Shown piece after piece: positions 32,419-35,950 of a stretch of DNA of 64,000 bases. The notes under the pieces are model-generated. The model was not told where the DNA came from. It ran no database searches and saw only the letters and a program-made list of their open reading frames with translations. Where the stretch lies: contig NZ_JAHVJA010000002.1 of NCBI RefSeq assembly GCF_019801465.1, forward strand, positions 248,001 through 312,000, in the 5' to 3' direction. The stretch comes from Leisingera daeponensis. GTDB taxonomy: Bacteria; Pseudomonadota; Alphaproteobacteria; Rhodobacterales; Rhodobacteraceae. Numbering within the stretch: position 1 is the first letter of the stretch; each line of letters begins with the position of its first letter. The translations under genes were made by a program, and so were the position numbers.

Positions 32419-33345
32419 TCAGCCGCCCAGGCACCAGCGCATGATCGCCTTCTGCGCGTGCAGCCGGTTCTCGGCCTCGTCAAAGATCACCGACTGCGGG
32501 CCGTCCATCACGGCAGAGGTCACCTCTTCCTCGCGGTGGGCCGGCAGGCAGTGCATGAACAGCGCATCCGGCTTGGCAGCGGCCATCAGCGCGTCGTTTA
32601 CCTGATAGGGCCGCAGCATGTTGTGGCGGCGCTCTTTGGAGGACTGGCTGTCATGCATCGACACCCAGGTATCGGCGACCACCAGATCAGCACCCTCAAC
32701 CGCCTTGAAGGCATCACGTTCGACCACGATCTTGGAGCCCGCCTTGCGCGCCAGCCCCATGAACTCCCCCTCCGGGTCCAGCTGCGCCGGGCCGGTGAAG
32801 GTGAGGTCGAAGCCGAACTGCCCGGCAGCGTGAATAAAGGACGCGCAGACGTTGTTGCCGTCACCGGCCCAAACCACCTTCTTGCCCCTGATCGGGCCGC
32901 GATGCTCTTCGTAGGTGAGGATATCGGCCATGATCTGACAGGGATGGGTGCGGTCTGTCAGGCCGTTGATCACCGGCACATCGGCATATTCCGCCATCTC
33001 GGTCAGCACGGTCTCGTCGAAGGTGCGGATCATGATCATGTCGACGTAGCGGCTCAGCACCCGGGCGGTGTCGGCAATGGTCTCGCCATGGCCCAGCTGC
33101 ATGTCCTTGCCGCTGAGCACCATGGTCTGGCCGCCCATCTGGCGCACGCCGACGTCGAAGGACACCCGGGTCCGGGTCGAGGGCTTCTCGAAGATCAGCG
33201 CCACCATCCGGTCCTTCAGCGGCAGCTCGTCATCCAGCGCCGCCTTGGGGCGGCCGAGACGCGCCAGCTTGGTGGATTTGGCCTGGTCGATGATCCCCCG
33301 CAGCTCGGCCGGATCAGTTTTGTGGATGTCGAGGAAATGGTTCAT
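32419..33345 (-). CDS. argF: ornithine carbamoyltransferase
   Basis: A 308-residue OTCase with the carbamoyl-phosphate motif STRTR at 56-60, the ornithine-binding region ([13 protein letters not shown]) and FMHCLPAHR near the C-terminus. It catalyses carbamoyl phosphate + ornithine to citrulline in arginine synthesis. It lies 79 bp downstream of argD on the same strand; a GC-rich repeat element sits in that gap. The ATG at 33345 is the family start. Confidence 0.97.
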
Positions 33346-33372
33346 GGTCGTATCGCTTTGTTCTGACGAAGG

Positions 33373-33424: not shown

Positions 33425-34600
33425 TCAGGAGGCTTCCACCTGGGCGGCGGTTTTTTCAAGGCGGCTGACGGCCTCGGCGATGTCCTCGTCCGTCAGGGTC
33501 AGCGGCGGCAGCAGGCGGATCACATTGTCCGCAGCCGGGACGGTAATGAGCTCATTGTCATACCCCGCCTTCACCACATCGGCATTCACCGCCTTGCATT
33601 TGAGCCCCAGCATCAGGCCCGCGCCGCGGACCTCCTCGAAGACCTCGGGGTGATCGGCAACCAGCCCTTCCAGCTTCTGCCGCATGAGGCCCGCTTTGCG
33701 GTTCACTTCCGCCAGAAAGGCCTCGTCGGCGATGTGATCCATCACTGCACAGCCCACCGCGCAGCCCAGCGGATTGCCGCCGTAGGTGGAGCCGTGGGTG
33801 CCTGCGGTCATGCCGCTGGCGGCCTCCTCGGTGGCCAGCACCGCGCCCAGCGGGAAGCCGCCGCCGATGCCCTTGGCCACCATCATGATGTCCGGGGCCA
33901 CGCCCGCCCATTCATGGGCAAACAGCTTGCCGGTCCGCCCGACGCCGCATTGCACCTCGTCGAGGATCAATAGCAGGCCGTGCTCGTCGCAGATCGCGCG
34001 CAGCGCCTTCAGCTCGGCATCCGGCACCGGACGGATGCCGCCCTCGCCCTGCACCGGCTCGATCAGGATGGCGGCGGTTTTCTCGGTGATGGCATTGGTG
34101 ACGCCGTCCAGATCGCCGAAGGTCAGATGCACGAAGCCGGGCAGCAGCGGGCCGAAGCCCTTGATCATCTTCTCGGACCCCGCCGCAGCAATCCCCGCCG
34201 AAGACCGGCCGTGGAAGGAGCCGTCAAAGGTGATGATCTCCACCTTTTCCGGCTGGTCCTTGTCGTAGAAATACTTGCGCGCCATCTTCACTGCCAGCTC
34301 GCAGGCCTCGGTGCCGGAGTTGGTGAAGAACACGGTGTCGGCAAAGGTATGCTCCACCAGCTTGTCCGCCAGCGCCTGCTGCTGCGGGATCTGGTAGAGG
34401 TTGGAGACATGCCACAGGTTCTGCGCCTGCGATGTCAGCGCCTCCACCAGCGCCGGATGGGCATGGCCCAGCGCGTTGACGGCAATGCCCGATCCCAGAT
34501 CCAGGAAGCGTCGCCCGTCCGCCGCGGTCAGCCAGGCGCCTTCGCCTTTGACGAACTCAAGCGGGGCACGGTTGTAGGTCGGCAGAACGGACGGGATCAT
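33425..34600 (-). CDS. argD: acetylornithine aminotransferase
   Basis: A 391-residue class III PLP aminotransferase: [16 protein letters not shown] start, [31 protein letters not shown] and the Schiff-base lysine in [15 protein letters not shown] (about K240). It makes N-acetylornithine, and the product can also serve lysine synthesis. Candidate starts at 34618 (TTG) and 34609 were rejected: AAAAGG lies nine bases before the ATG at 34600. It is preceded by a candidate arginine leader peptide. Confidence 0.95.
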
Positions 34601-34626
34601 CGGGATCATCCTTTTCAAAGGTGGAA

Positions 34627-34651
34627 GCCAAAGCTGTGACGTAAGCTTGGC
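34627..34651 (-). promoter_or_regulatory. hairpin before the argD ribosome site
   Basis: In the argD transcript GCCAAGC pairs with GCTTTGGC (one bulge) across a TTACGTCACA-like loop. It ends about 27 nt before the argD ATG and could influence translation or hold an alternative pairing partner for the leader. Confidence 0.45.
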
Positions 34652-34690
34652 CTTGGGTCAACGGTGGATCAGCGGATTTCAAATGGGGGA

Positions 34691-34710
34691 TGTGCTGCAC
34701 GGCAGGCACA
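34691..34710 (-). promoter_or_regulatory. hairpin in the argD leader between leader ORF and argD
   Basis: In the transcript TGTGC / GCACA, extended inward by TGC/GCA around a CGT loop with one bulge. No U-run follows, so it is not a classic terminator on its own. Confidence 0.4.
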
Positions 34711-34726
34711 GGGGATCAGGAGCCGG

Positions 34727-34780
34727 TCACGCCAGGCGGCGTCGGCGTCGCGAGATGGTGATATAAGCGCGTTTGATCAT
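34727..34780 (-). CDS. candidate arginine leader peptide (attenuator) of argD-argF
   Basis: A 17-codon frame, ATG at 34780-34778 to TGA at 34729-34727, encoding MIKRAYITISRRRRRLA. Five consecutive arginine codons (CGA CGC CGA CGC CGC), including two rare CGA codons, sit near the 3' end. It is 127 bp upstream of argD on the same strand. Such a cluster at the 3' end of a short ORF before the matching biosynthetic genes is the hallmark of ribosome-mediated attenuation, in which arginyl-tRNA shortage stalls the ribosome and refolds the leader. A U-run terminator is not visible downstream, so the mechanism may act on translation or involve longer folds. A purine-rich GGAA lies just upstream of the ATG as a weak ribosome site. 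Confidence 0.6.
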   Translation of the reverse strand: MIKRAYITISRRRRRLA

Positions 34781-35038
34781 GGTGGGGTTCCATAGTGGAG
34801 GTTTCGGTGAAAGAAAACCCCTTTTGTGCAGCCTGCCCCGCCGTTTCGCCGCAGCCCGCCGCCCGGCTCATTCTTCTTTGCTGAAATACTCCGGGTGAAT
34901 TGGCCGCCAGGCCAAGAGGGCAGCGCCCCTTTTCCGAGCAAGCCTGCGGGGCAGCGCCCCTGCCCTAGCGGTAAATTACGTCAGCGGCCGAGGCCTTTCC
35001 GCTTGCATCCCGCGGCGGCTTGCCGCACCGCTTGTGCC
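34781..35038. other. 258-bp intergenic region between the arg leader and the DMT transporter
   Basis: Contains the second GC-rich repeat copy and a duplicated GGGCAGCGCCCC (about 34918-34929 and again near 34950), but no credible gene. Promoters for both divergent units must lie here or in the leader; none is convincing by eye. Confidence 0.4.
34876..34930 (+). repeat. roseobacter-type repeat, copy 2
   Basis: CTTTGCTGAAATACTCCGGG (34876-34895), a TTGGCC-GCCA-GGCCAA hairpin (34900-34915) and GGGCAGCGCCCC. It matches copy 1 at 33373 (minus strand) over the CTTTGC(A/T)GAAATACTCC core. Confidence 0.5.
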
Positions 35039-35950
35039 ATGAGCATCGCAACACCGCAGAACCCGGCCCTGGCCGCCGCCCTGATCCTGGCGGCAACCAC
35101 CTTCATTGCCGGCACCACGCTGATGGCCAAGGCGCTGGGAACGGATCTGCTGGGGGCGCCGCTGCACCCGATGCAAATCAGCCACGGGCGGTTCCTGTTT
35201 GCCTTCATCGGCATTTCAACCGCCGTGCTGATCCTGCGGCCCAGATTCACCCGGCCGCACTGGGGCTATCACATCGGCCGCACGACCTTCGGCTGGGCCG
35301 GGGTCACGCTGATGTTTGCCTCGGTGGCCTACATCCCGCTGGCGGATGCCACCGCGATCACCTTCCTGAACCCTGTGTTCGGCATGCTGTTGGCGATCCC
35401 GCTCCTGGGAGAGCGGGTCGGCCCCTGGCGCTGGGGCGCTGCGCTGGTTGCGATGGTCGGCGCGATGATCCTGCTGCGGCCCGCGCCGGCCAGCTTTCAG
35501 CCCGCGGCGCTGCTGGCCCTGGGGGCGGCAGCGGTGATGGGGCTGGAGCTGATCTTCATCAAGAAGCTGGCGGGCCGCGAAGGGCCGCTGCAGGTGCTGT
35601 GGTTCAACAACCTTCTGGGGATGATGATCGCCAGCTGCGCGGTGCTGCCGGTCTGGCAGATGCCGGGCGCGGCGCAATGGGGCGCGCTGGCAGCGCTTGG
35701 CCTCCTGATGGCCTGTGCCCAGGCCTGTTTCATCAACGGCATGGCGCGGGCCGATGCGTCCTTTGTCGCGCCGTTCAGCTATGCCACGCTGGTCTTCGCG
35801 GCGCTTTACGACTTCCTCGGCTTCGGCGAGGTGCCGGATGCGGTGTCCTTCCTTGGCGCCTGCATCATCCTGGCCGGGGCTGCCATCCTGGCCTGGCGCG
35901 AAGGCCGGGTGCGGCCCCCTGCAGGCCGCGCGGCGGCTGCGGTGAAATAG
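35039..35950 (+). CDS. DMT-superfamily transporter (EamA-like)
   Basis: A 303-residue protein with ten predicted helices in two EamA repeats, e.g. ALILAATTFIAGTTLMAKAL and ATAITFLNPVFGMLLAIPLLGERV. Family members export amino acids, nucleotides or other metabolites. No ribosome site is obvious; the ATG at 35039 (MSIATPQNPA) gives the natural membrane-protein start. Substrate unknown, and the adjacent gene set gives no clue. Confidence 0.88.
   Translation: MSIATPQNPALAAALILAATTFIAGTTLMAKALGTDLLGAPLHPMQISHGRFLFAFIGISTAVLILRPRFTRPHWGYHIGRTTFGWAGVTLMFASVAYIPLADATAITFLNPVFGMLLAIPLLGERVGPWRWGAALVAMVGAMILLRPAPASFQPAALLALGAAAVMGLELIFIKKLAGREGPLQVLWFNNLLGMMIASCAVLPVWQMPGAAQWGALAALGLLMACAQACFINGMARADASFVAPFSYATLVFAALYDFLGFGEVPDAVSFLGACIILAGAAILAWREGRVRPPAGRAAAAVK

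Follow-up and report, generated by a model that had tools for sequence, protein, structure and literature searches.

An arginine-codon leader ORF conserved before argD-argF in Rhodobacterales, a candidate arginine-sensing leader-peptide regulator

How do marine alphaproteobacteria adjust the synthesis of arginine? The question is left open, since the arginine repressor known from gammaproteobacteria, ArgR, is described as missing from other classes in the available part of the source (PMC5343134). We approached it from the argD-argF locus of Leisingera daeponensis, which lies in the window, that is, the whole stretch of 64,000 nucleotides analysed. A preliminary description of this DNA had pointed to a 17-codon minus-strand frame with five consecutive Arg codons upstream of argD, and had proposed that the level of arginyl-tRNA controls argD-argF through it. 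The frame was confirmed at 34780-34727; its stop codon is separated from the argD start (34600) by 126 nt, and argF is the next gene after argD (Table 1).

Table 1. Features of the argD-argF leader region, in positions of the window; promoter elements are predictions
Feature	Position	Strand	Basis
argF, ornithine carbamoyltransferase	32419..33348	minus	TIGR00658 above cut-off
argD, acetylornithine transaminase	33425..34600	minus	TIGR00707 and NF002325, both above cut-off
argD Shine-Dalgarno, AAGGA	34609..34613	minus	sequence; Shine-Dalgarno count over the leaders
Hairpin H2	34627..34651	minus	between P2 -35 and argD; would occur only in P1 transcripts
P2 -10, CACAGC (predicted)	34633..34638	minus	17-bp spacer; predicted start about 34626; prediction only
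P2 -35, TTGACC (predicted)	34656..34661	minus	conservation of TTGAC
C-rich linker	34662..34690	minus	nearly G-free before TTGAC in leader-bearing relatives; less clean here (2/14)
Hairpin H1, UGUGC..GCACA	34691..34710	minus	both-side changes in 5/6 pairs
Helix A, 3' arm, UGAUC, past the leader stop	34714..34718	minus	5 bp in this genome; extended in many relatives
Hairpin B, Arg codons GCCGACGC with GCGU..CGGC across the stop codon and beyond	34722..34746	minus	predicted fold; 5' arm nearly invariant
Leader ORF, 17 codons, MIKRAYITISRRRRRLA and stop	34727..34780	minus	such an ORF in 186/219 upstream regions
Arg run CGA CGC CGA CGC CGC, proposed stall site	34736..34750	minus	codon counts over 186 leaders
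Helix A, 5' arm, GAUCA, at the leader start	34774..34778	minus	compensatory changes
P1 -10, TATGGA (predicted)	34789..34794	minus	8 nt before the leader ATG; TA box statistics
P1 -35, TTTTCT (predicted)	34812..34817	minus	T-rich element 30-40 nt before the leader ATG; prediction only

Relatives were taken as the best 80 named ArgD matches, the closest of which came from Leisingera. In 79 of the 81 sequences (window included), an ORF starting with ATG 130-230 nt before argD encoded at least three Arg in five residues, and the remaining two had RR instead of the Arg cluster. ArgD was present in 149/149 Rhodobacterales genomes, whose upstream regions came from 30 loci with the ArgD search and 119 that were fetched; once 10 duplicates and L083, a copy of the window, had been dropped, 219 distinct regions (window included) were at hand. 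Of these, 186 have, before argD, a short ORF that begins with ATG and contains an Arg cluster; the same test passed 5 of the 219 antisense sequences and, in five dinucleotide shuffles, 3, 8, 2, 4 and 5 of 219. The leader ORF is real, conserved and beyond what chance provides. Its Arg run has Arg at positions 2-4 in 96%, 95% and 81% of the 186 leaders, and the distance from the first Arg to the stop ranges from 3 to 10 codons, most commonly 7 (83 leaders) or 4 (52 leaders). The peptides themselves vary in length and at the N-terminus (e.g., MMTRATMNVRRRR, MIARTTHIARPRRRRASA, MTAAANIRRRRRA). The pattern that the preliminary description had named as its check was thus borne out: the Arg run and its position before argD are kept across Rhodobacterales, and the other residues of the peptide drift. 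A leader present in 186 of 219 argD upstream regions offers a concrete and testable answer to how arginine synthesis may be adjusted in marine alphaproteobacteria.

Six regions with only two adjacent Arg (L050, L071, L147, L153, L156 and L157) stand outside the 186, and were treated as leader-bearing in the arm-swap test of H2 described below. By the tests used, 27 of the 219 regions had neither an Arg cluster nor an RR leader. In three leader-less regions, L171, L172 and L187, the end of a co-directional gene (GYRLKA, TRLKA or GYRMKP) lies just upstream of argD; as the end of another gene adjoins argD there, loss of the leader may have gone with a change of the neighbouring gene. A group of five regions (L058 and L078, both of Salipiger, L115, L118 and L128) carries reduced leaders with the ends RIRRA or RIRRV, and L058, L115 and L118 have in common a TTGGCACCAATCGGGC block around the predicted -10 element of P2.

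The choice of codons within the run points to what it may sense. A single tRNA, with inosine in the anticodon, reads CGA, CGC and CGT, and CGA is its poorest codon. The first Arg codon was CGA in 178 of the 186 leaders, and the four positions of the run comprised 691 Arg codons, namely 360 CGA, 290 CGC, 35 CGT, 4 CGG and 2 AGA, so that 685 of them belonged to the CGA/CGC/CGT set. For comparison, CGA accounted for 92 of 1223 Arg codons (7.5%) and CGG for 236 of 1223 in the bodies of the argD genes, a background drawn from 80 loci and hence from a set of genomes differing from that of the 186 leaders. Judged by this codon bias, the run looks built to test one tRNA, with the slowest codon first. 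Because of this choice of codons, we read the leader as a probable sensor of a single arginyl-tRNA, which would be its likely signal; such a leader would also offer a natural system for the study of CGA decoding.

The run is conserved at the level of codons, mostly as CGACGCCGACGC, and its RNA can pair in hairpin B, as it might if the Arg codons simply came with a conserved DNA or RNA motif that is not translated. However, other codon orders occur, such as CGA CGA CGC, and start and stop codons stay in frame even though the peptides vary in length and sequence. Nor is the motif enriched: the 12-mer of the run has 8 exact occurrences in this genome, compared with 19 for a reversed-pattern control, and only the copy before argD belongs to such a leader. 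We regard an untranslated motif as hardly credible.

Motifs resembling a Shine-Dalgarno sequence preceded the leader in 23 of 186 cases (background 13%) as opposed to 185 of 186 before argD. A TA at -15..-10 of the leader ATG was present in 181 of 186 leaders (background 9%), a count somewhat inflated by the fact that the -10-like element helped to decide on the start where a leader offered more than one in-frame ATG. As no Shine-Dalgarno sequence above background and a -10-like TA just upstream were seen, the leader mRNA is probably leaderless, with transcription from a predicted promoter, P1, starting at or next to the leader ATG. The putative promoter is arranged in the window as TTTTCT, 17 bp, TATGGA, 8 nt and ATG, and a T-rich element upstream of the leader was found in 145 of 186 cases by a loose pattern counted without a background. 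Promoter-like elements upstream of the leader ORF are thus conserved, as far as sequence can tell. A scan of 34500-35100 for promoters of the E. coli consensus type found none, a consensus that may not suit alphaproteobacterial promoters: according to the accessible part of the source, these often have no T at -7, which such a scan demands (PMC8407463). Upstream of predicted P1, positions 34860-34895 of the window match about 37 bp of another contig at 89% (G000:C9:19289-19325, L002), perhaps as a small repeat.

A second element of promoter type lies downstream of the leader. Of the 219 regions, 211 have TTGAC at 40-100 nt before argD, compared with 27 of 876 background windows; in the window it stands 57-61 nt before argD. 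A CA follows at +23 of TTGAC, and the first two positions of the predicted -10 are C in 77% and A in 68%. The element looks like a sigma70 promoter of the alphaproteobacterial type and would be a second argD promoter, P2. Since TTGAC resembles a promoter, some of the argD mRNA is likely to begin past the leader. An argD mRNA start downstream of 34727 had been named in advance as evidence against the leader's role; the predicted P2, with its start at about 34626, points to such a start. Through P2, much of the expression of argD could be independent of the leader. In a group of nine leader-less regions (L196, L203, L215, L216, L219, L220, L221, L225 and L226), the first TTGAC is preceded at 23 nt by a second one, which lies in a similar block that resembles TTGACCCCATCA and in some of them follows TGATCATG. 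The feature is found at about 90-60 nt before argD, and another regulator of argD may act there.

Pairing of the leader start with the sequence past its stop (helix A) occurs as GATCAAA/TTTGATC, in the compensated forms GATCAC/GTGATC and GATCGA/TCGATC, and in L075 as GTTCAAA/TTTGAAC, and it is broken in some leaders (L024, L059 and L063 have no complement). A perfect complement of at least 5 bases was found in 86 of 97 leaders (random partner about 74) and one of at least 6 bases in 67 of 97 (random partner about 46). As random partners are nearly as good, the length of the complement says little, and the double changes are what count. Among 45 sequences, both-side changes occurred in 12 of 22 pairs of the domain (shuffled 6.0) and in 35 cells (shuffled 15.0), values as high being reached in 0 of 500 shuffles in either case; further pair types numbered 29 (shuffled 23.3), which was equalled by 4 of 500 shuffles. 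Pairing was possible in 87% of cells, compared with 24-40% when the arms were slid, a control favoured by the drawing of the structure from the same sequences. The covariation result was alike with the first 39 sequences (set A2), from which L067, L073, L075, L077, L081 and L082 had been omitted, and the count was repeated on all 45 (set A3); both sets were picked for a GATC at most 24 nt from the stop, which favours the four GATC pairs of helix A and not the other pairs.

Hairpin B adds little covariation because its 5' arm hardly varies. Its letters persist where the leader stops right after RRRR and the region is non-coding (L030 and L035). In a GC-matched arm-swap scan, helix A scored t -3.84, which is not strong on its own because lineage effects reached t +4.5 in the same scan; the double changes are strong. 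RNAalifold recovered only helix A (6 pairs) from A2, and its folds of whole regions disagreed with one another. With 68 of these, helix A, hairpin B and H1 all appeared, H2 being replaced by a shorter hairpin. From 24 whole regions it returned H2, together with a pairing of CGAC in the Arg run with GUUG of TTGAC and one of the leader start with the argD start. The last of these was attributed to the palindrome GATC and discounted. As to CGAC-GUUG, both sides hardly vary, and TTGAC stays in leader-less regions. Compensatory changes support an RNA domain that the leader start would close by pairing with the sequence past the stop, and a hairpin that follows it. A search of the whole window with Rfam 15 at the gathering score gave 0 matches.

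The two hairpins between leader and argD noted in the preliminary description, H1 and H2, are both present at the positions given there. The stretch between them is depleted of G in relatives with a leader: at -16..-2 of TTGAC, G made up 5.2% in leader-bearing regions vs 23.6% in the 20 leader-less ones. H2 goes with the leader too. Its own arms paired better than swapped arms in 140 leader-bearing regions (t -6.8) but not in 17 leader-less ones (t +0.8, a small sample), and a perfect stem of at least 5 was formed by 54 of 137 own pairs, with 24 expected from swaps. In the GC-matched scan of 68 region pairs, H2 came first (t -5.55) and helix A next.

A covariance model of the leader domain, built from 39 sequences including that of the window, found one strong copy in this genome. 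In 61 genomes of the family it gave a match in 38 at E up to 1, and the 12 strongest of the 51 matches listed (E up to 5.1e-4, that of the window included) all lie before argD. In this genome, argC, argG, argJ and argH had no Arg-rich short ORF within 400 nt upstream; the five matches of the Arg-ORF test near these genes comprised one about 435-490 nt before argC and others inside or downstream of the gene. A search of a plasmid collection gave no match. As to other families, ArgD was matched in 100 of 114 genomes of the class, and 40 of these were fetched. By the looser ORF test alone, 7 of these 40 other alphaproteobacterial families passed, and only L241 ends in RRRR. The ORF of L241 has 25 codons and extends from -130 to -52 before argD. 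Judging from these searches, the device looks largely confined to Rhodobacterales.

These distributions bear on the idea that the main role of the leader RNA is that of an independent small RNA or peptide, with argD transcribed from P2 alone. TTGAC lies downstream of the leader and is also present in 20 leader-less regions, and in an alphaproteobacterium, Sinorhizobium, the leaderless trpL leader has functions in trans through rnTrpL/peTrpL, as stated in the available part of the source (PMC10117765). However, the leader is tied to argD in the 12 strongest model matches, and both H2 and the G-poor linker, which lie downstream of the leader, go with it. We consider a separate RNA or peptide rather unlikely, and return to a leader that acts on argD-argF.

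The next point is how the state of the leader could be passed on to argD. The preliminary description had named the element a candidate arginine attenuator, had suggested a search for mutually exclusive folds, and had remarked that a classic U-run terminator was not visible. The remark held: 34500-35100 contains 0 terminator-like sites (shuffle mean 0.8), and the window has no intrinsic terminator with a U run before the first gene. The exclusive folds were not borne out, as none rose above noise in the scan of 68 region pairs or in constrained folds, tests of which the swap kind is escaped by pairings of invariant letters such as CGAC-GUUG. In that scan, no alternative pairing for either arm of H2 stood above noise, and pairing of the leader start with the loop or 3' arm of H2 reached at most t -2.2, next to lineage effects of up to +4.5. 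Windows rich in T follow H2 in 55 of 184 relatives (background 5%), a figure that cannot be counted towards termination because the U content after H2 is equally high in leader-less regions and may belong to P2. When folding was constrained by a ribosome on the run as compared with one at the stop, H2 lost 0.52 (SEM 0.17) of about 4.5 pairs, a small change in the expected direction; in the window itself, H2 remained almost unchanged between the two positions.

A trp-type attenuator with mutually exclusive terminator and antiterminator would explain why a leader ORF with codons for the regulated amino acid precedes a biosynthetic operon in 186 of 219 regions, and the T-rich windows after H2, the slight weakening of H2 with a ribosome on the run and a never-varying pairing such as CGAC-GUUG, unseen by swap tests, can be placed on its side. 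Against it stand the scan of region pairs, from which no alternative pairing emerged, and the window, which is devoid of a terminator-like site, along with the occurrence of the same T-richness in leader-less regions. We judge this form improbable.

The same leader might instead alter access to the ribosome site of argD or the decay of its mRNA. A precedent exists in Salmonella orf34-speF, where consecutive Arg codons occur in the leader ORF (PMC6386406, in the part available), and in constrained folding a ribosome on the run opens hairpin B. However, pairing of the argD Shine-Dalgarno sequence was weaker than swapped controls in 10 of 11 upstream regions, in 6 of them at t above +2, and modelled access to this site was equal for the ribosome positions tried. 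As access did not change, a translational switch appears unlikely, and we hold the same of the translational or stability reading as a whole.

The reading that we consider somewhat probable is an arginine-sensing leader-peptide regulator of argD-argF that would act on the P1 transcript at the level of transcription. Comparison across relatives supports the ORF, its codon bias, helix A, H1, H2 and the TTGAC element. From the proposal of arginyl-tRNA control, the ORF, the Arg run and the codon choice speak for it, exclusive folds and a terminator were not found, and P2 complicates it; the core of the interpretation, a leader peptide, is right, and its classic attenuator form is not supported by the findings.

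In such a regulator, P1 would start the mRNA at the ATG of a leaderless ORF that ends in the Arg run, with the slow CGA codon first, and the leader, helix A, hairpin B, H1, the G-poor linker and H2 would be transcribed from it as one unit. When arginyl-tRNA is plentiful, the leader would be translated to its stop and the ribosome would depart; helix A, hairpin B and H1 would then fold, to be followed by the exposed C-rich linker and H2, and little P1 transcript would reach argD. When arginyl-tRNA is scarce, the ribosome would stall in the run and keep hairpin B and helix A open, and more transcript would run on into argD-argF. P2, the core of which overlaps H2, would supply basal expression of argD. 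We infer the use of both promoters, the stalling, the direction of the response and transcription as the controlled step; derepression on arginine shortage is the likely direction because the leader sits before argD-argF. For the controlled step itself, we favour a Rho-dependent or coupling-based event in transcription, which the G-poor linker would aid.

More tentatively, the locus may represent a new layout, in which a leaderless, single-tRNA, CGA-first ORF is joined to a leader RNA that closes on itself, a linker poor in G and a covarying hairpin inside the P2 core. The attenuated transcript and the basal promoter would then share 30 bp, and control would proceed without an antiterminator, via Rho or ribosome-polymerase coupling.

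As the preliminary description had supposed, no arginine attenuator of this group was found in the literature searched (open-licence papers); the argD leader would add a leader for arginine synthesis, a case not met in that literature, to the known amino-acid leaders of bacteria. The fungal arginine attenuator peptide is likewise an upstream ORF through which arginine controls arginine synthesis, but it is eukaryotic, and its nascent peptide responds to arginine itself without a run of Arg codons. Among bacteria, the leader ORF orf34 (speFL) of Salmonella senses arginine and, like the argD leader, has consecutive Arg codons, through which arginine is sensed by a slow-down of the ribosome. Unlike the argD leader, it belongs to a gammaproteobacterium, encodes another peptide, controls ornithine decarboxylase instead of arginine synthesis, and is described as acting by way of RNase G, Rho and an RNA structure that covers the ribosome site of speF (PMC6386406, as far as its available text goes). 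The core HIRRT..HIMM of the speF-leader family (DUF2618), given in the same available text (PMC6386406), was absent by eye from the argD leader peptides. A closer relation in taxonomy is uORFC-8-2 of cysS, which also occurs in Rhodobacterales and also has tandem codons for the amino acid concerned. These are Cys codons before cysS, with a 3' U run in all cases according to the accessible part of the source (PMC8632094), in contrast to the Arg codons before argD. Finally, trpL/rnTrpL of Sinorhizobium meliloti, which lies before trpE and encodes a 14-residue peptide, combines an attenuator with a dual-function sRNA, in which it differs from the argD leader; it resembles that leader in being an alphaproteobacterial attenuator system with a leaderless leader ORF, by the available portion of its description (PMC10117765).
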